Assembly: GCA_913061055.1 (NCBI GenBank)
Contig: CAJXVA010000020.1
Coordinates: forward strand, 1 to 41,312
DNA from: an uncultured Pseudomonadota bacterium
GTDB lineage: Bacteria > Myxococcota_A > Polyangia > Nannocystales > Nannocystaceae
Reading direction: 5' to 3'
DNA: 41,312 nt
The translations under genes and the position numbers were made by a program. The notes under the pieces were generated by a model. That model was not told the origin of the DNA. It saw only the letters and a program-made list of their open reading frames with translations, and made no database searches. Below are positions 15,224 through 41,312 of the stretch, one piece after another. Positions within the stretch are counted from its first letter, which is position 1. The number at the start of each line of letters is the position of its first letter.

Positions 15224-16111
15224 CTAGCCCTCAGCGAACCGCAGATCGACGAGACGCGGCCGGTGGTCGGACGCCGCTGAGGCTGGTGTCCGGCAGTCCA
15301 GGGCGAGCATGTCGCGCGAGGTCCAGATGTAGTCGAGCTGCAGGACCGGCAAGCTCGCTGGCCAGGTGGGACCCCCGCGCGGACATGCGTCCTGCAGCAC
15401 GGACTCCATCGCATCGTACTCGGGGCCCTTGGGTGTCGCGTTGAAGTCCCCCATCACCAACACGCGCTGCTTGCCGCTCGCGAGCTCGGCAGCGGCCGTC
15501 GTCTCAGCCAGTCGAAGAGCGTCAAGCCGGGTGCGGCGTTTCGGAGGGTCTCGAGGATCTGTGGGGTGCGTGTGCACGACGATCACGTGCAGCGTTCCAC
15601 TCGCGGATTGCACATCGGCGGTGAGCATCGCCAGGCCGCTTCGAGGGGCGGCTTCCCGTTTGACGTTGTGGATCGGCGTGCGACTCAACAGGGCCACACC
15701 GATCTCACCGCCCTGGTAGCGGCGGTGTCGCACGAACGCGTGGTGCATCCCCAGCCGGCGTCCGAGCTCGCTTGGAAGGTCGACTCGTTCGAACCTCCGG
15801 GTGTTCACGTCCACCTCCTGAAGCGCGATGACATCGGCCTCCATCGCGGCGAGCGTGTCGACGAGGCCGTCGATGCCACGCTTGGCTGCGAGGATGTTGT
15901 AGGTCGCGGCCCGAAGATCGGGTGGCGGCTCAGGCTCCGGCTGCGCGGGAACCGAGCCTCGAGCCGGGACGACCAGCGGCCCGAGCAGGGGGCGTATGGG
16001 CTCGGGCGAGGGAGCGCACCCGTGCAGAGGCAGCGCGAGGAACAGGGCCGCGAGCGCCCGACCGAGTTCAGGTCTCGGCGACGGCGTCGTCGGCGTCCGC
16101 GGCCGCGGCAC
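15224..16111 (-). CDS. Endonuclease/exonuclease/phosphatase-family lipoprotein
   Basis: 295 aa from the GTG at 16111 (an ATG at 16129 is also possible). After a hydrophobic stretch with lipobox LPLHGC comes a Pro-rich linker and a full EEP domain: RAATYNILAAKRG, the metal-binding Glu in DVIALQEVDVNTRR, VVHTHPTDPRD, VMGDFNATPKG, LQLDYIWTS and the catalytic ASDHRPRLVDL. The family covers secreted nucleases, phosphodiesterases and sphingomyelinases; the substrate is unknown. The start overlaps the end of the upstream lspA, an Asp-rich coding repeat, so the first 25 residues are an out-of-frame reading of that repeat. The lipoprotein signal next to lspA/lgt is fitting but not proof of a link. Confidence 0.82.
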   Translation of the reverse strand: MPRPRTPTTPSPRPELGRALAALFLALPLHGCAPSPEPIRPLLGPLVVPARGSVPAQPEPEPPPDLRAATYNILAAKRGIDGLVDTLAAMEADVIALQEVDVNTRRFERVDLPSELGRRLGMHHAFVRHRRYQGGEIGVALLSRTPIHNVKREAAPRSGLAMLTADVQSASGTLHVIVVHTHPTDPRDPPKRRTRLDALRLAETTAAAELASGKQRVLVMGDFNATPKGPEYDAMESVLQDACPRGGPTWPASLPVLQLDYIWTSRDMLALDCRTPASAASDHRPRLVDLRFAEG

Positions 16112-16733
16112 TCTTGTCGTCCTGCGCATCCTTGTCGTCCTGCGCGTCCTCACCCTTGTCGTCCGCGTCGGCGGTCTTCTTGCCGTCGAGCGCGTCGCCG
16201 TGGCGCGTGAGAAAGATGAACAGCAAGCCGACACCGACCACCAGAGCAACGTCGGCGATGTTGAACGTCGGCCAGACCTTGTCCTCCCAGTAGTGGACCT
16301 TGATGAAGTCGACGACGCCGTAGTGCATCTCGCCGCGGATATCGAGCTGGCGGACCAAGCGGTCGTGCAGGTTGCCCAGAGCGCCGCCGGCGACGAGTGC
16401 CACCGCCATGAATGCGGTGCGGAACTTGGTGGGCATCGTCCACGCGAGCCGAGCCATGTAGATCAGCGCCAGGATCGTGACCCCGATGAACACCATGCGG
16501 GCGTAGGAGGCGTCTCGCAGGAAGCTGAACGCAGCACCGGTGTTGAAGCCGAATTCGAACTCGAACCAATCCTTGATGATCTCCTTCTTGACCGGAGGAT
16601 CGCGGAGGTTCTCCCACGCCCAGGCCTTGGACCACAGGTCGAGGGCGAGCGTGATCGCCATGACGACGACCGTCTCGATGAGGCGTTGCTTTCGAGAGGG
16701 GGCGGCCGCGCTGGAGGATGAGGCGTCGGTCAT
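16068..16733 (-). CDS. lspA: Lipoprotein signal peptidase, copy 1, with acidic tail
   Basis: Cleaves signal peptides of diacylated prolipoproteins in the inner membrane. 221 aa, about 50 longer than usual. Conserved sites: FNTGAAFSFL, GGALGNLHDR, the catalytic Asp in HYGVVDFIKV and the second Asp in FNIADVALVVG. Four hydrophobic helices are seen. The extra length is a C-terminal Asp/Ala/Lys-rich tail containing two DAQDDK units encoded by a tandem DNA repeat. The ATG at 16733 is 49 nt after the lgt stop. With the second lspA and lgt it forms a lipoprotein-processing cluster. Confidence 0.93.
   Translation of the reverse strand: MTDASSSSAAAPSRKQRLIETVVVMAITLALDLWSKAWAWENLRDPPVKKEIIKDWFEFEFGFNTGAAFSFLRDASYARMVFIGVTILALIYMARLAWTMPTKFRTAFMAVALVAGGALGNLHDRLVRQLDIRGEMHYGVVDFIKVHYWEDKVWPTFNIADVALVVGVGLLFIFLTRHGDALDGKKTADADDKGEDAQDDKDAQDDKSAAAADADDAVAET
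16113..16148. repeat. Two tandem 18-bp repeats in lspA copy 1
   Basis: CTTGTCGTCCTGCGCATC is followed at once by a copy with one base changed (17 of 18 identical). On the minus strand each encodes DAQDDK in the acidic LspA tail. Such in-frame units can expand or contract by slippage without breaking the frame. Confidence 0.85.
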
Positions 16734-16782
16734 GGCGGTGCGGGAGCATAGCGCACCACCTCGGCGGACGCAGGAGCTGGTT

Positions 16783-17667
16783 TTACGCTTCGATATCGGG
16801 TGCTTGGCGCGTTTTCCAGAGCCCCCACGCACCCAGCGCAATCATTCCGAGCGCGGTGATCTGGGAGATCGAAAGCAGCAGGGGATGGGCAGGCGGAAGG
16901 GACAGTGCCCTGGAAAGGGCAGGCGCCGTGAACTCGAACAGGAACCCCCGAGACGCGTCCCCGCGAAACACCTCGACCAGCGCTCGCAGGACGCCGTAGC
17001 CCACCGCGTATCGGCTGGCCATTCGCCACGGAGGCTCGACGCCGCGGCGCACCCGGATCGCCCACGCCATGCCGAGCAACGCGAGCAAGCCGAACGCTTC
17101 GTAGAGCTGGGTCGGGTGCAGCGGGAGTGTCGTGAGTGTGTCGCCCCCGCCGACCACCGGCGCGCCCGAGGTGAGGACCACGAGCGAGTCGGGGCCAAAC
17201 CGCAGACCGCGACCCCCGGTGTGCACACCGCCCCAGCAACAGCCGGCCAGAAAACAACCGAACCGGCCCGCGGCGTGACCCAGCGGAAGCCAGGTCAGGC
17301 CCATGTCCCAGACCGAGCCCACGTTCAGGCCGTAGCGGCGAGCGACCCAGATCCAGCCGCCGGCGACCGCGAGCAGGCTGCCGAAGAACACGAAGCCGGT
17401 GCTGTCGACCGCGATCAGCTTGGTCGGGTCCTCGGCGTACACGCCGGGAACGGTCAGGACGTGCAGCAAGCGCCCTCCGAAGAACGCGCCGACAACGATG
17501 ACCAACCACAGGTCTACGAGGAAGGACAGCCGTCGCTCACGCGGAATGCCTCGTTTCCGGGCGTCCCAAGCCGTCATCGGCAGACACAGCAGCCCGCCGA
17601 TCATGATCAGGGTGCCGTACGCATTCACCTCCGTGCCCCACGGCAGTGTGAACAGGTGCGGATGCAT
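16783..17667 (-). CDS. lgt: Prolipoprotein diacylglyceryl transferase, divergent type
   Basis: Transfers diacylglycerol from phosphatidylglycerol to the lipobox Cys before LspA acts. 294 aa, about seven hydrophobic segments. Family landmarks: the start MHPHLFTLPWGTEVNAYG, FFGGRLLHVL, GRFGCFLAGCCWGG, and LHPTQLYEAFGLLALLG. Two sites differ from E. coli Lgt: the region of His103 reads TGFVFFGSLL with no His, and the Asn146 position (GRIGNF) is Cys. The GRxGCFLAGCC form is, from memory, found in other members of the family. The ATG overlaps the lspA-2 stop by 1 nt (TGATG), so the two are probably co-translated. Confidence 0.88.
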   Translation of the reverse strand: MHPHLFTLPWGTEVNAYGTLIMIGGLLCLPMTAWDARKRGIPRERRLSFLVDLWLVIVVGAFFGGRLLHVLTVPGVYAEDPTKLIAVDSTGFVFFGSLLAVAGGWIWVARRYGLNVGSVWDMGLTWLPLGHAAGRFGCFLAGCCWGGVHTGGRGLRFGPDSLVVLTSGAPVVGGGDTLTTLPLHPTQLYEAFGLLALLGMAWAIRVRRGVEPPWRMASRYAVGYGVLRALVEVFRGDASRGFLFEFTAPALSRALSLPPAHPLLLSISQITALGMIALGAWGLWKTRQAPDIEA

Positions 17668-18197
17668 CAGCCGGGCTCCGCCCTCATCCGTCCGCGCAAT
17701 CCCAGGAGCAGCAGGCCAACACCGGCCGCGAGGGCGACGTCCGCGACGTTGAACGCGGGCCACGACCGCTCTCCCCACGACAACACGATGAAGTCGACCA
17801 CGCCGTACTGGTCTCCACGATCGAAGAACCACATGTGGCGCACGAATCGGTCGTGCAGGTTGCCCAAGGCGCCGCCGGCGAACAGGCCGACCGCCGCGAA
17901 TGAGACCGGGGCGGTCGTCGGCAGGCGTCTGAGCATCCGGCCGAGGTACAGCAGAACGCCAATCGTAATTGCGATGAAGACCAGCCGCGCGGAGCTCACG
18001 TGATCGGCGAGTCCAAAGGCGGAACCGGTGTTGAACGCAAACTCGAAGCGCAGCCAGCCCTCGACGACGACACGCGGCCGCTGGCCCCGAAGATGCTCCC
18101 AGACCCAAGCTTTGCTCGCGAGGTCCAACGCGAGCGCCGCCACGCAGAGCGCAGCGGCGAGGGCGACCCGTCGGGCCCGTGACGGGGAAGGGGACAC
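17667..18197 (-). CDS. lspA: Lipoprotein signal peptidase, copy 2
   Basis: 176 aa, normal length. Four membrane helices; conserved FAFNTGSAFGLA, GGALGNLHDR, catalytic Asp in QYGVVDFIVL and in FNVADVALAAG. It is related to but clearly different from copy 1, so not a recent duplicate. The start is GTG at 18197; the ribosome-binding site is not obvious. It is the first gene of the lspA-lgt-lspA run. Confidence 0.92.
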   Translation of the reverse strand: MSPSPSRARRVALAAALCVAALALDLASKAWVWEHLRGQRPRVVVEGWLRFEFAFNTGSAFGLADHVSSARLVFIAITIGVLLYLGRMLRRLPTTAPVSFAAVGLFAGGALGNLHDRFVRHMWFFDRGDQYGVVDFIVLSWGERSWPAFNVADVALAAGVGLLLLGLRGRMRAEPG

Positions 18198-27518: not shown

Positions 27519-28613
27519 TCAGTACACGCCAGGAATGATGCGGTAGCGAACCCGACGGCAGTACGCCTCCCAGAGCGCGCCATACTTGGCGGCGCAGCGG
27601 CGGTGGTCGTCGCGCTCTCGGGGGACCAACAGAAGCACGTAGTACAGCGGATACATCCAGGGCCCGAGCGCCGCGGGCCACCCGAGCACCCACGCCAACC
27701 CGGTGGCCATCAGAATCTCACCCAGGTAGTTGATGTGGCGAGAGAGGCCCCAAAAACCGCTGCAGAGCAACGCCTGGGAGCGGTCTTGCACGGTCTCGGG
27801 TTCGAAGATCCCCAGGAAGACGTGGCTCGGGTCGAGCTTGAAGAAGAACTTCTGCATGTTGGCGCCCCGGGCCAACATCCACCCGGCGAAGAACACGATT
27901 GCGCCAGCGCTGAGCCACAACATGCCTCGCTCAGGGCTCGGTTGATCGGCCACGTTCCACAGTCCCACCGAGTAGAAGTACGGGTAGAAGGTCAGGCAGC
28001 CCCAGCCCAGCTTGAACCCCACGCGTTCCGCGAAGAGGTCGTAGGTGTAGAGGTGAACGCGCTCGAAGAACAGGTAGTCGAGCAAGAACCAGCCGAACAA
28101 CGCGACGTGCAGCAGAACGCCGAGTGAGGCCGCCGATCCGAAGACGAGGACGTGGTGGGCGGCGAAGGACAGCAGGTTGAGCGCGAGCATGGTGGCGCCC
28201 ACGAGGTAGAGGAACATTTTCGCATCGACGCGACCTCCTGGCGTCTGCGGGTTTTCGCGGCGTCCCAAGAAGAACTCGACGAGGACGCCGCGGCCGGTGC
28301 TCGGAGCGCCCACCATGATGGCGATGGAGAACAGCATCCCGAGGGTGAAGGCGCCCGCGAGTGACGACCAGCGGTGGGTCCAAAGCCAGTCCCAGGGGAG
28401 CCAGCCCAGACGGCATGCACCCGCCCAGGCGCCGACGGTCAGGAGCATGACCGGGAGTCCGTTGAGACGGTAGCCCAGGGGCTCGTCGGTCTCGGGGTGA
28501 CGGGCGTATCCGCGGACCTTGTGAGCGGGCACGAGCACATGAAGTGCAAGGATGAACGCGTAGATGCCCCAAGGAGCGGCGAAGCCGATCAGTTCGATGT
28601 CCATCGCAGTCAC
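27519..28613 (-). CDS. ERG4/ERG24/DHCR7-family sterol reductase
   Basis: Membrane enzyme reducing a sterol double bond with NADPH. 364 aa, many hydrophobic helices. Family signatures: EFFLGRRENPQTPG (the GRELNPR site) near residue 120, CSGFWGLSRHINYLGEIL, and the C-terminal VPRERDDHRRCAAKYGALWE then YCRRVRYRIIPGVY, the classic R-D-x3-C-x2-K-YG-x-x-W-x2-YC block. Family members act as C-14, C-7 or C-24(28) reductases; which one cannot be told here. Sterol synthesis is rare in bacteria but known in Nannocystineae. The GTG at 28613 overlaps the SDR stop as GTGA; ATG 28604 is the alternative. No sterol cyclase or demethylase is in the window. Confidence 0.88.
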   Translation of the reverse strand: MTAMDIELIGFAAPWGIYAFILALHVLVPAHKVRGYARHPETDEPLGYRLNGLPVMLLTVGAWAGACRLGWLPWDWLWTHRWSSLAGAFTLGMLFSIAIMVGAPSTGRGVLVEFFLGRRENPQTPGGRVDAKMFLYLVGATMLALNLLSFAAHHVLVFGSAASLGVLLHVALFGWFLLDYLFFERVHLYTYDLFAERVGFKLGWGCLTFYPYFYSVGLWNVADQPSPERGMLWLSAGAIVFFAGWMLARGANMQKFFFKLDPSHVFLGIFEPETVQDRSQALLCSGFWGLSRHINYLGEILMATGLAWVLGWPAALGPWMYPLYYVLLLVPRERDDHRRCAAKYGALWEAYCRRVRYRIIPGVY

Positions 28614-37045: not shown

Positions 37046-37594
37046 TCACGCCAGCGGGTAGACCGTCTCGGGCGTGTACTTCGATCCAGCCTGATTCAGG
37101 ATGCTCGAGTACAGCGTGAACGACTCGACCTCGAACGGTGGCGCATCCCACAGCGCGTGCATGCCCAACCACGCGGCGACCTTCTTGCTCGGCGAGCGTT
37201 TGAGGCGGGCGAGGGTGATGTGCGGCACGAACCCTCGCACGTCCGGCTCAAAACCCGCGCTGCGTAGCGCGCCCTCGAGTTGGTCATGCAGATCCATCAG
37301 GGCAGGGGAGTCCTCGAGCCCGAGCCACAGCGACCGCGGCTCCCCACGGGGCGGGAAGTGGCCGCAGCCGCGAATCGTGAGGGCGAACGGACTCGAGCGA
37401 ACCGACCGAAGGCATTCGTCGAGCTCGGCACGTTGCCCTCCATCCACGCTCCCCAGGTAGCGCAACGTGAGGTGGAGCTTCTCGGGTGCTTCCCACCGCG
37501 CGCCCTCGATACCTCCACCGAGCAGTGCCAATTGTTGGGCGAGCAGCGGCGGCAGGGAGAGTCCGACGAACAGGCGGCTGGTCTTGGGAGACAT
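37046..37594 (-). CDS. thpR: RNA 2',3'-cyclic phosphodiesterase
   Basis: 182 aa 2H-phosphoesterase. RLFVGLSLPP opens the domain, and both catalytic HxTx motifs are present: HLTLRYLGSVD and HITLARLKRS. It hydrolyses 2',3'-cyclic phosphates to 2'-phosphates; the original name is 2'-5' RNA ligase. The ATG overlaps the stop of the response regulator by 1 nt (TGATG), so it is the third gene of regB-regA-thpR. A link with redox signalling is not known. Confidence 0.9.
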   Translation of the reverse strand: MSPKTSRLFVGLSLPPLLAQQLALLGGGIEGARWEAPEKLHLTLRYLGSVDGGQRAELDECLRSVRSSPFALTIRGCGHFPPRGEPRSLWLGLEDSPALMDLHDQLEGALRSAGFEPDVRGFVPHITLARLKRSPSKKVAAWLGMHALWDAPPFEVESFTLYSSILNQAGSKYTPETVYPLA

Positions 37595-38175
37595 CACTCT
37601 TCGAGCGGCGCGACACCTTCGCCCGGGCGGCCGCGGGCGAGTTTTCGCTGGAGGCTGCGGCGGTGCATGCCGAGTCGCCGTGCGGCCTCCGAGATGTTGC
37701 CCGCGCAGTCGGTGAGCACCCGCTGCAGGTGCTCCCATTCCACCTCTTCGAGGGAGCGTGGGTTGGCCGACTCCTCGGTGACCTCGGTCGCCGGTTCGGT
37801 GCGGTCGAACGCGGCGAGAACCTCGTCAGGCTCGGCGGGTTTGGTCAGGTAGTGGACGGCGCCGAGCTTCATGGCTTCGACCGCGGTCGCGATGCTTCCG
37901 TATCCGGTGAGCACGACGATCTTCATGCTCGGGTGCTTCTGATGGAGTTCACCGACGACCTCCAGACCGCCGCGTCCGGGCATGCGCAGGTCGACCACGG
38001 CGCGCCCGGGGTTCCACGCCTCGGCCTCGCTGATCGCGTCGTCGTAGTCGTGGGCGACGACGACCTTGAAGCCGCGTCGGCGAAACGCCCCTGTGAGCGC
38101 TGCGCAGAAGGCCTTGTCATCATCGGTGATGAGGATCGTTTCGCCGTCCGGGGTGGTGTCGCTGAGGCTGTTCAT
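37594..38175 (-). CDS. regA: RegA/PrrA-type response regulator
   Basis: 193 aa. Receiver domain with acidic D18-D20 (ILITDDDKAF), phosphoacceptor D62 (VVDLRMPGRGG), T90 and K112 (YLTKPAEPDEVL). The C-terminal Fis-type helix-turn-helix AGNISEAARRLGMHRRSLQR with RKLARGR is the hallmark of the RegA/ActR/PrrA group, which control redox-dependent genes with no AAA+ domain. The ATG overlaps the regB stop as ATGA. Two matching operator-like sites lie upstream of regB. Confidence 0.92.
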   Translation of the reverse strand: MNSLSDTTPDGETILITDDDKAFCAALTGAFRRRGFKVVVAHDYDDAISEAEAWNPGRAVVDLRMPGRGGLEVVGELHQKHPSMKIVVLTGYGSIATAVEAMKLGAVHYLTKPAEPDEVLAAFDRTEPATEVTEESANPRSLEEVEWEHLQRVLTDCAGNISEAARRLGMHRRSLQRKLARGRPGEGVAPLEE

Positions 38176-39464
38176 GTCGAGGCGAGGGGAAAGTTGATGG
38201 TGACGGTGGTGCCGCGGCCCGGTTCGGACTGTGCCGAGATGCTACCGCCGAGCTGACGAAGTTGGGCGCGGGTGAGGTACAGCCCAAGGCCCATTCCGGA
38301 CCCCTCGGGCTTCGTGGAGAAGAACGGGTCGAACGCGGCACCCGCCAGGGCTGTGTCCATCCCTTCTCCATCATCTTCAACCTGGATTCGGGCCATCGCA
38401 TCCGCGACGGAGACCCGGACCCGGATCTCACGTTTGCCCGGGCGACGCCGGCAGGCCTCTGCAGCGTTGGCCAGCAGCTCGCGGAGGATCTGTCCGATGG
38501 CGTCGCGCGGCAGGTCGCAGGATGCGTCTTCACTGCCGCCCTCGAAGCTCACCTCGACAGGAACCTCGCCGGTCGCGCGGCGTTCACTGCGGAGTTCCGC
38601 AAGCGACCAGGGTTCCGCGTCGGCGCCCAACGCCTGCACACGAGCGTCGGGCGTCGACATTCGTTGCACGATCTTCTTGCAGCGAGAGACCTCGTGGCGG
38701 ATGGAACCGGCCGCATCGTCCCGTTCAACGCTGTCCATGTGCGGCAGTTCCGAGGCAAGTACGGCGATCGTGCCCAGCGGCGTGCCGAGTTCGTGCGCTG
38801 CGCCGGCCGCGAGGCTGCCCAAGCTCGCCAGGTGCCGGTCTTCGAGCGCCTGGTCCCGCAACCGAGTGAGCTCGGCCCGCTGACGGGCGACCGACATCGC
38901 GATGCTGTGCACGAAGTAGGTAATGAGCGCGCCGGTCACTCCGAACGAGAACCACATCCCCTGCAGGTGCCCCGCGAAGTGGTGCTCGTGGCCGGGCGGC
39001 CCTTGCGGGAGGGGACCGAGCAGATAGAGCAGTCCAAAGCCAGCGAGCGAGGCTCCGGCGACCGCCCACGTCCAGCGCGGGGAGACTTGCGTGGCGAGGG
39101 TGATCGGGACGAAGTACAGCGTCGTGAACGGGTTGGTCGCGCCCCCGGTCAGGCCCAGCATCAGCGTGAGCGCGGCGGAGTCGGCGAGCAGCTGGAGGCC
39201 CGCAAATGTCACCGTGGCCCGTCCGCTGGGCAGGACCACCCGGGCGACGTACACGTTGAACATCGCCAACGCGACGAGAATCGCGACGAACCCAGCAATG
39301 GTCCCCGAGGTCGGCACCCAGCTGAGGACGGGCGCGACCAGTTGTGGCGCGAACGCCATCAACGAGGCCGCAGCGCCCATCAGGGCGACGGTGACCCATC
39401 GGGCCGTGACCAGGCCGCGCAGGGTCAGAGCGGCCGGAGCGAGGCTAGGTTTGGGAGTGCTCAA
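38172..39464 (-). CDS. regB: RegB/PrrB-type redox sensor histidine kinase
   Basis: 430 aa with six membrane helices in the first 190 residues. GGATNPF (107-113) is the RegB heptad implicated in quinone sensing. The H-box is AAGAAHELGTPLGTIAV with H224, and C262 (HEVSRCKKIVQRMS) lies about where RegB has its redox-active Cys265. The ATPase domain follows with ELLANAAEACRR, DDGEGMD, FFSTKPEGSGMGLGLYL. No ATG fits; TTG 39464 (LSTPKPS) is the best start. It phosphorylates the adjacent RegA; low quinone oxidation would be the expected signal. Confidence 0.9.
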   Translation of the reverse strand: MSTPKPSLAPAALTLRGLVTARWVTVALMGAAASLMAFAPQLVAPVLSWVPTSGTIAGFVAILVALAMFNVYVARVVLPSGRATVTFAGLQLLADSAALTLMLGLTGGATNPFTTLYFVPITLATQVSPRWTWAVAGASLAGFGLLYLLGPLPQGPPGHEHHFAGHLQGMWFSFGVTGALITYFVHSIAMSVARQRAELTRLRDQALEDRHLASLGSLAAGAAHELGTPLGTIAVLASELPHMDSVERDDAAGSIRHEVSRCKKIVQRMSTPDARVQALGADAEPWSLAELRSERRATGEVPVEVSFEGGSEDASCDLPRDAIGQILRELLANAAEACRRRPGKREIRVRVSVADAMARIQVEDDGEGMDTALAGAAFDPFFSTKPEGSGMGLGLYLTRAQLRQLGGSISAQSEPGRGTTVTINFPLAST

Positions 39465-39510
39465 CGCCGGATGAGTGTGCCACGACCCTCGGCCTGGGCC
39501 GTGGACACGT

Positions 39511-39544
39511 GCGACAGCGTGTCGCGACTGCGACGGTCGGTCGC
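39511..39544. promoter_or_regulatory. Two tandem RegA/PrrA-type operator sites
   Basis: GCGAC-AGCGT-GTCGC (39511-39525) and GCGAC-GGTCG-GTCGC (39530-39544). Both are perfect inverted repeats with 5-nt spacers and fit the GCGNC/GNCGC pattern described for PrrA/RegA. They lie 19 nt apart in the 114-nt gap between divergent regB and the diheme cytochrome gene. Confidence 0.6.
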
Positions 39545-39578
39545 AGCGCGTCCAGAGACCATCCCGTAGTCCAAGAAC

Positions 39579-39902
39579 GTGACCTTTGGCGTCCGACCGC
39601 TGGCGTTCGCGCCCTTGTTGTTGGCGATGCTCGGCGCCTGTCTGCCCGCGCTGGCACCGGGGATCCGCGCGTCCGAGCATCACGGCGGTCTGACGACTCA
39701 GACGGAGGACCACACGTGCATGGGCTGCCACGAGGCCGAGCAACAGGTGCTCGAACAGCTCGCGTCGATGCCTGCGTCGAAGCGCGACGCGGCGATGGAG
39801 CACCGGATGCAGGGGGGGGGTGCCTCGCTCGTCGCCCAATGGATGCTGGACGACGCCCGGTCCTGCGCGGGATGTCACGAGCCGCGAGCGGGGTGGCGAT
39901 GA
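39579..39902 (+). CDS. Diheme c-type cytochrome-like lipoprotein
   Basis: 107 aa from the GTG at 39579. A hydrophobic signal ends in lipobox LGAC (Cys21), so it is probably lipid-anchored in the periplasm. Two CxxCH heme-binding motifs follow: CMGCHEAE near residue 47 and CAGCHEPR near residue 96, widely spaced as in small diheme proteins. Its stop overlaps the following outer-membrane protein start as ATGA. The position opposite regB behind two RegA-type sites suggests redox control. Confidence 0.8.
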   Translation: MTFGVRPLAFAPLLLAMLGACLPALAPGIRASEHHGGLTTQTEDHTCMGCHEAEQQVLEQLASMPASKRDAAMEHRMQGGGASLVAQWMLDDARSCAGCHEPRAGWR

Positions 39903-40762
39903 AAGGCATCGCGCCGTGGATCGTCGCCGTGTTCCTTGTGCTGGTCGCTGCTCCGCGCGACGCACGAGCGCATCATGTTCCCGGGCATGGGGCATCGGAG
40001 GGGGTCCGCAACCTCAACAGCCTGGGCGGCGGTGCGGGCCAAGCCACCTCACGCGTGATGCTGCTGCAGGAGTACAGCCGCAACTCCACCAGCCTCAACC
40101 CCGCGACCACGTACAACACGTCGTTGCTCGGCGAGTACGCGCCGCATCCGTGGGTCTCGTTGGGTGCTCAGGCGCCGCTGCTCGTCGTCGACGAGGACGC
40201 GGCACCGCGCAAGGTCGGTTACGGCGACACGCGGGTGTTCCTTCGGCTCACGCCCCACGCCGACAAGCTGATCCACCGCATCATCACCACGGGCATCAAC
40301 CTGTCGGTCCCGACCCGTTCGCTTCGGTTTGAGGCCGACCCTGGCCGCGTGTGGACAGTGTCGCCGATGGCGATGTTTACCCGCACGCACCTGCGCACCT
40401 ACTGGCAGGTCATGGTGCTGGCGACCGCCGAGCATCGCCCCGCAGGGACGGCGTTCGACTTCACCGCGAGCGGCCAGATCGGGTACCGAGCCTTCGGCAA
40501 GCTGGGTCTGAGCCTTGGAGCGCTGGCCGACGTTCGGGCCGCGAACCTGTGCGCTGAGGTCGGGGGTGGGTCGGCCTACTGCGCCGGCAACCGAGCGACG
40601 GAGACCAATCGGCAGGTCGGGTCCGTTCGCATCGCCCACCTCACCGGCGTCAGCTACAGCTTCGCATCGTGGGGCCTGCTCGCGGCCAACCTGCAGCTTC
40701 CCCTGACTCCCAAACGCGATTTCAACGTCGCGGGCAGTCTGAGCGTTCAGTTTCAGTTCTGA
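39899..40762 (+). CDS. Outer-membrane beta-barrel-like protein
   Basis: 287 aa. Signal peptide MKGIAPWIVAVFLVLVAAPR to ARA, then His-rich AHHVPGHGASEG and alternating polar/hydrophobic strands (TYNTSLLGEYAPHPWVSLGA, RVFLRLTPHADK, FDFTASGQIGYRAFGKLGL, FASWGLLAANLQLPL). The last residue is Phe after SVQFQ, the usual outer-membrane insertion signal. It resembles the putative transporter/MetA-pathway barrel type. Cargo unknown; translation is coupled to the diheme cytochrome, so electron transfer or metal traffic at the outer membrane is possible. Confidence 0.78.
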   Translation: MKGIAPWIVAVFLVLVAAPRDARAHHVPGHGASEGVRNLNSLGGGAGQATSRVMLLQEYSRNSTSLNPATTYNTSLLGEYAPHPWVSLGAQAPLLVVDEDAAPRKVGYGDTRVFLRLTPHADKLIHRIITTGINLSVPTRSLRFEADPGRVWTVSPMAMFTRTHLRTYWQVMVLATAEHRPAGTAFDFTASGQIGYRAFGKLGLSLGALADVRAANLCAEVGGGSAYCAGNRATETNRQVGSVRIAHLTGVSYSFASWGLLAANLQLPLTPKRDFNVAGSLSVQFQF

Positions 40763-40856: not shown

Positions 40857-41277
40857 TTAGCCGTTCTTCGACTTCGAGCCGCCGCCCAGGTCGATGCCCG
40901 CGAGCAGATCGCCCAACGAACCGAGCTTGCCCGCCTTCTGCTTGCCGCCGCTGCCCTTGCCTTGGGACTGCCGGAAGTTCGCGAACGCATTGCGCTCCTC
41001 GGTCGCTGAGACCGCGCGGACCGAGAATCGAAGCTTGCCCTTGGAGCCGCCTCGCATTTGGACAACCTGGACCTCGGCGCCGATCTTGTAGCGGCGGCGC
41101 GGGTCGGAGTTGAGCGGGAGGTCGAGCTCGGCCGTCGGGATGACCCCGGCGCCAGCTTCGGTGGTGACAAGCACGCCGTAGTTCTCGATCTTGTCGACGG
41201 TCGCTGTGACGACCTCGTTCTGCTTGGGCGTGGGTGCGACGTCTCCTTCCTTCTCGAGCGCTCGCATCGAGAGGCTG
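40857..41277 (-). CDS. S1 RNA-binding domain protein, 5' end missing
   Basis: 140 codons from the adapter to the stop. The first residues SSLSMRALEKEGD are the typical end of an S1 domain (usual form R-x-SLSMRALE), so at least one more S1 repeat lay upstream and was lost at the contig end. A complete S1 domain follows: VVTATVDKIENYGVLVTTEA, GVIPTAELDLPLNSDPRRR, YKIGAEVQVVQMRGG, KGKLRFSVRAVSATEER. The C-terminal tail ends LGSLGDLLAGIDLGGGSKSK, a Gly/Lys-rich tail. It resembles ribosomal-protein-S1-like accessory RNA-binding proteins. The internal Met at 41267 is not the true start. Confidence 0.85.
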
Positions 41278-41312
41278 CTGTCTCTTATACCACATCTCCG
41301 AGCCCACGAGAC
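41278..41312. other. Nextera adapter on the right contig end
   Basis: CTGTCTCTTATAC then CACATCTCCGAGCCCACG and AGAC: the reverse complement of the read-2 transposase adapter, with one extra C. Library sequence, not genomic. Any frame crossing it is artificial. Confidence 0.97.

Follow-up and report, generated by a model that had tools for sequence, protein, structure and literature searches.

What does a RegBA-type two-component system control in the family Nannocystaceae? The question is raised by a 41,312-nucleotide stretch of DNA from an uncultured bacterium of this family (the window; contig CAJXVA010000020.1 of GenBank assembly GCA_913061055.1, contig 20 of a 10.65-Mb genome in 913 contigs). 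In the window, the kinase gene regB and the regulator gene regA are divergent from a gene for a diheme c-type lipoprotein, and two inverted repeats, here termed operators 1 and 2, lie between them. Comparison with relatives placed the same palindrome upstream of genes for copper proteins. The reading that we favour, with a probability of roughly 0.7, is that this RegBA-type system regulates copper handling at the cell envelope in the family.

A palindrome with a fixed spacer is conserved upstream of regB, the diheme gene and mbnP

Operator 1 (TGCGACAGCGTGTCGCG; 39510..39526, no strand) has the core GCGAC-N5-GTCGC at 39511-39525. Operator 2 (TGCGACGGTCGGTCGCA; 39529..39545, no strand) has its core at 39530-39544 and is the full 17-bp palindrome TGCGAC-N5-GTCGCA. 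They stand 19 bp apart, start to start, with a 4-bp gap, as in a previous sequence-only reading of this DNA, which had described a pair of perfect inverted repeats between regB and the cytochrome gene. Both are kept in the genus mate and in other genera.

A genome scan for the spaced motif, proposed by that reading as a check, found GCGAC-N5-GTCGC at 45 sites compared to 98 for the reversed control, and the genome-wide count of the single motif was rejected as evidence because it showed no enrichment. When the window was shuffled, 10 of 100 shuffles held at least two sites. The exactly spaced pair is rarer. A spaced double array arose in 2 of 100 shuffles even with three mismatches permitted, and the window copy is exact. 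No other two of the 45 sites lie close together, and simple arithmetic gives ~0.005 such pairs expected under random placement. The full TGCGAC-N5-GTCGCA was intergenic at seven of its eight positions in the window genome, and looser matches lay mostly inside genes. The single motif is weak by itself; on sequence grounds, its conservation across relatives is the decisive support.

Conservation was counted as a site within 450 bp upstream with at most one mismatch, in relatives that are not independent samples. On this count, the operator was found upstream of regB in 15 of 22 cases, of the diheme gene in 14 of 18 and of mbnP in 15 of 28. The reversed motif gave no hits in any of the three sets, and shuffling gave means of 0.07-0.1 with a maximum of 1-2 hits per set. 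Of the 449 remaining genes in the loci retrieved, 21 had a site, which gives mbnP a Fisher p of 1e-11. Many of these background loci had been chosen because of the motif or one of its targets, and in that respect the value is conservative. The spacer was always 5 in 37 sites, with none at 0-4 or 6-10. The operator was also found upstream of diheme genes remote from regBA (L040-L044, L047); it flanks regBA itself in several genera, and at every target it recurs in more than a single genus, with several genera represented each time. The unenriched count and the shuffles with two or more sites are in line with palindromes that arose by chance in GC-rich DNA. That explanation is already refuted by the positional conservation over many genera, unlinked diheme loci included, together with the fixed spacing and the empty control, and we give it practically no weight.

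The operator precedes genes for copper proteins

In this family, the operator recurs at mbnP-mbnH operons. In genus g12, tandem full palindromes 29 bp apart stand upstream of an operon encoding MbnP, a small CxxCH lipoprotein and MbnH, and the arrangement is conserved in several g12 genomes. MbnP scored 241 bits against TIGR04052 (cut-off 140) and MbnH 489 bits against TIGR04039 (cut-off 363). In the window genome and its genus mate, full palindromes were found upstream of genes for a multicopper oxidase (Pfam Cu-oxidase domains; best NCBIfam match CueO), a CusC-like outer-membrane efflux protein (PF02321), a CusB-like resistance-nodulation-division adaptor (TIGR01730, 151 bits, cut-off 95), a CobW-type GTPase and a small lipoprotein weakly resembling LIC13259. 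The operator is also found at genes for His-rich lipoproteins in several genera, and it separates one such gene from the divergent diheme gene in g4, g10 and g12. In a genome of the same class and another family (G056), regB-regA is followed directly by mbnP-mbnH. Outside the family, regBA adjoins an SCO-like gene in G044, and in G038 a site with one mismatch lies within the 1.5 kb that separate mbnP from a RegB homologue. We found no paper in the literature linking RegBA with MbnP/MbnH.

Several further observations concern these sites and genes. The small His-rich lipoproteins L112, L111, L115, L155, L206, L241 and L242 are unannotated, and most have an upstream operator; searches of the His-rich lipoproteins against Pfam and NCBIfam gave no match. 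Some of them carry a C..DC...LICD.H.G.GTCQ..H.H module and some a C-terminal Cys-rich domain. Tandem arrays of three degenerate operators at 15-16 bp spacing occur upstream of mbnP in G000 (L222) and G008 (L231), and degenerate arrays stand at matching positions upstream of mbnP in G000 and G001. In G000, a full palindrome precedes the gene for a putative M66-like peptidase lipoprotein (C129, L136), and another precedes that for a secreted protein with a marginal CopC/Ig-like domain (C133, L137), the latter conserved in the genus mate (L207).

COX1 and SCO genes were rejected as targets, the operator being present at 0 of 19 and 1 of 17, respectively. These counts bear on the possibility that the sites are real RegA operators of a general O2 or redox (quinone) regulator like that of alphaproteobacteria, the copper genes being merely its most visible redox-linked targets. 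RegB keeps GGxxNPF and the redox-Cys position, and several of the targets are haem proteins. The chemistry of copper is also tied to that of O2, and the RegA of R. capsulatus responds to Cu plus O2 (PMC9147068). The near lack of sites at COX1 and SCO genes, whereas Azospirillum RegBA adjoins cyoABCD and SURF1, and the concentration of identified targets on copper proteins both argue against a general redox regulator, which we consider unlikely, if worth keeping in mind. The locus had earlier been proposed to be a redox-responsive surface electron or metal module. The metal half of that proposal gains support from the operator at mbnP-mbnH, His-rich lipoproteins and copper genes; general redox control or electron export does not, given the COX1 count.

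RegB and RegA form a divergent RegBA-type pair

The genes regA (37594..38175, minus strand) and regB (38172..39464, minus strand) overlap, the regB stop with the regA start. RegA is a short protein with a receiver domain (PF00072) and a Fis-type helix-turn-helix (HTH) domain (PF02954; AARRLGMHRRSLQRKLARG), and it has no AAA+ domain. Its best NCBIfam match was NF033791 (ActR/PrrA/RegA), over nearly the full length and at 182 bits, below the cut-off of 250. The PrrA effector domain 1umq matches RegA residues 136-184, and the HTH is identical in nearly all orthologues of the family. A Cys directly ahead of the HTH (TDC-AGN) sits in the region of Cys156 of R. capsulatus RegA, a protein that binds Cu and forms Cu/O2-promoted disulfides (PMC9147068).

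RegB is a membrane histidine kinase with a likely TTG start, which is also present in an 84% identical orthologue (L053/L104). Its best NCBIfam match was NF033792 (ActS/PrrB/RegB), over the full length and at 173 bits, below the cut-off of 350. Since both proteins fall below the equivalog cut-offs, we file the pair as a divergent RegBA-type system and not as a proteobacterial equivalog. RegBA had been called best known from alphaproteobacteria and some gammaproteobacteria; given how common RegB-like kinases are in this phylum, finding one here is not in itself unusual, and none of 141 phylum genomes exceeds the NF033792 cut-off.

Two kinase features picked out by the sequence-only reading are indeed present. 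The quinone-site motif reads GGATNPF in the window, and GGxxNPF is kept in most orthologues, with no strict match in the RegB of g12. A Cys lies 38 residues past the phospho-acceptor His of the H-box (38 or 43 in the orthologues examined), and its position alone suggests that it may be equivalent to the redox Cys265 of R. capsulatus RegB. The loop between transmembrane helices 5 and 6 (TM5-6), which would be periplasmic if six helices are present, is His-rich in the window (PPGHEHHFAGH) and strongly His/Met-rich in g8. In the RegB of G008, G016 and G022 (L028, L026, L019) it is much longer and His/Met-rich (e.g. MPEMGAMPEMSAMPDMGAAGMGHGHFEGH), resembling periplasmic Cu-binding segments. The senC/SCO gene that is a trait of group 1 RegB/RegA was not found beside regBA in the window.

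The window pair shares domain architecture, GGxxNPF, a Cys after the H-box, a Fis-type HTH, GCG half-sites and adjacent kinase and regulator genes with RegB/RegA, PrrB/PrrA, ActS/ActR, RegS/RegR and RoxS/RoxR. It differs from these proteobacterial redox systems in its scores under the equivalog cut-offs, its copper-dominated targets, the lack of an operator at COX1 genes and of senC beside regBA, and the strictness of its palindrome. PrrA/RegA sites are described as a degenerate GCG inverted repeat with a variable spacer (PMC4263372), with no strong consensus for PrrA (PMC4263372) or for the RegA of Acidithiobacillus (PMC5506826). The conserved palindromes fit the GCG inverted repeat expected of binding by the RegB/RegA family. 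The earlier assignment to the GCGNC/GNCGC pattern holds for the half-site, and the fixed N5 is stricter than that pattern's usual degenerate form.

This strictness would suit a different transcription factor that binds TGCGAC-N5-GTCGCA and coordinates regBA with the copper genes. The GCGAC half-site, the sites flanking regBA and the essentially invariant HTH of RegA speak against such a factor. In addition, G002 and G003, members of the family that have mbnP and no RegB orthologue, have no site ahead of mbnP, although this is a small sample. We regard binding by another factor as improbable. RegA is the presumed binder, and the operator-like sites conserved upstream of regB and the diheme gene are consistent with the earlier proposal of autoregulation and support that of control of the diheme lipoprotein and barrel.

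The diheme lipoprotein is paired with a probable outer-membrane barrel

The diheme gene (39579..39902, plus strand; 107 aa, GTG start) encodes a protein with a lipobox-like LGAC and the haem motifs CMGCH and CAGCH. It overlaps by ATGA the gene for a probable outer-membrane beta-barrel (39899..40762, plus strand; 287 aa), which has a C-terminal Phe and the predicted mature N-terminus HHVPGHGASE. Both genes are divergent from regB, and the 114-bp intergenic region (from the TTG at 39464 to the GTG at 39579) contains both palindromes; a scan for sigma-70 promoters around the operators found none. Of 59 genomes, 18 had both genes and the others had neither; none of the 18 lay outside the family in this sample. 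The diheme protein has a conserved HH before the first haem motif. The aligned barrels share AxA-[HD]HxPGH[GA]xSE, and most of their predicted mature forms start with His-His; one barrel orthologue has a His-rich tail and one diheme orthologue a His-rich insert. These His features look metal-binding, and Cu is a plausible ligand. The barrel fold is probable, judged from the strand pattern, the C-terminal Phe and the pairing with the diheme gene. The barrel had no match in Pfam, NCBIfam or a plasmid search, and a structure model built from two sequences showed many strands at a predicted local distance difference test score (pLDDT) of 38, a quality too low to search for similar folds. Neither protein of the window pair matches TIGR04052 or TIGR04039 (MbnP/MbnH), whereas unlinked members of the regulon do.

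In Pfam, the diheme protein had only sub-threshold matches to multihaem families, including an MtrC/MtrF domain at E = 0.003, far below the gathering cut-off. Together with the obligatory pairing of a c-type cytochrome lipoprotein and a probable barrel, this match recalls Mtr conduits, and the pair could be an Mtr-like outer-membrane electron conduit that serves metal reduction or extracellular respiration and has no part in copper homeostasis. Mtr-type systems combine decahaem cytochromes with a homologous MtrB-type barrel; the window pair has two CxxCH motifs only, a barrel without a Pfam match, no significant homology and no periplasmic decahaem partner adjacent. The operator shared with mbnP-mbnH and the His-rich lipoproteins, the HHxPGHG N-terminus and the His-rich extensions also point away from an Mtr-like conduit, which we judge to have little chance of being correct.

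A model for copper control at the cell envelope

If the RegBA-type system does regulate copper handling, RegB would sense the redox state of the quinone pool, O2 or copper in the membrane or periplasm and phosphorylate RegA, whose dimers would bind TGCGAC-N5-GTCGCA, single or tandem. From 39511-39544, RegA would control its own regBA operon and the divergent diheme-barrel operon. Its targets elsewhere would be mbnP-mbnH and the His-rich lipoproteins, joined in the window's genus by genes for Cus-type efflux and a multicopper oxidase. The probable task of the diheme lipoprotein and its His-headed barrel partner is to bind copper at the outer membrane, to reduce it or to transport it. A more specific version, which we put forward tentatively and with some doubt, is that RegBA has turned into a dedicated copper sensor in this family, that the diheme protein, the barrel and the His-rich lipoprotein form a hitherto undescribed outer-membrane copper module driven together with mbnP-mbnH by RegA, and that RegB reads periplasmic copper through the His/Met-rich TM5-6 loop beside the quinone site.

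Known copper systems offer partial parallels. CusRS/CopRS share the control of Cus-type efflux and multicopper oxidase; their sensor architecture differs, and their regulators are OmpR-type. In the myxobacterium Myxococcus xanthus, the two-component system CorSR controls multicopper oxidase as well as copper efflux (PMC3707914). Its regulator CorR, a sigma-54 activator, carries an AAA+ domain that the window RegA lacks. Compared to MbnP/MbnH, MopE-SACCP and CorA-CorB, the mbnP-mbnH operons here appear to be controlled by RegA and are not part of methanobactin operons, and the window locus itself has the diheme-barrel pair instead of mbnPH. Expression at low copper is known for MopE/CorA-type pairs (PMC3912023, PMC3621798), CorA-CorB included (PMC3912023), and would suggest that starvation induces mbnPH; the multicopper oxidase and Cus-type targets suggest a response to copper excess. 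RegA could activate some targets and repress others.

Several points weigh against copper control by this system. Genus g6 keeps regBA without recognisable sites at the targets tested, and one of its genomes (G021) also keeps mbnP, the diheme gene and the barrel; this exception may reflect drifted specificity. The promoter of the window genome's own mbnP has two-mismatch sites only. Sites at CusC (4 of 14) and multicopper oxidase genes (3 of 20) are limited to few genomes, and some full palindromes stand upstream of genes without a known copper link. The low equivalog scores of RegA and RegB and the non-independence of the relatives count on the same side. Finally, a His-rich TM5-6 loop could be usual for RegB proteins, the comparison covering orthologues in relatives.

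Other features of the window

Nextera transposase adaptor sequence was present at both window ends, at 14-47 (exact, minus strand) and at ~41278-41312 (with a one-base indel, as judged by eye). Because of the adaptor at the contig end, the S1-domain gene at 40857-41267 is truncated; its orthologue in the genus mate encodes ~400 aa. In L125 and L127 (contigs C26 and C45 of G000), adaptor-like end translations (VSYTHLTLPTSDLV, LLYTSDAADE) interrupt CusC-like genes, and the G000 assembly seems to carry adaptor at several contig ends. At 16068-18143, two signal peptidase II genes (PF01252) surround a prolipoprotein diacylglyceryl transferase gene (PF01790). This lspA-lgt-lspA duplication is unusual, and the genome is rich in lipoproteins. 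An ERG4/ERG24-type sterol reductase gene at 27519-28604 (PF01222, 150 bits) suggests bacterial sterol synthesis. With the genome size and general background, this gene makes a Nannocystis-like myxobacterium the probable source.

Implications for copper biology in the family

RegBA is known as a redox and energy regulator with a binding site that has proved difficult to define, and here a RegBA-type system seems to have a crisp operator and a copper-centred regulon. The analysis also points to a candidate regulator of MbnP/MbnH pairs that stand alone; a 2013 survey described these as 'mysterious partners' and had no data to link them with copper (PMC3621798). It further predicts that the unannotated diheme lipoprotein-barrel pair would be a surface copper module.

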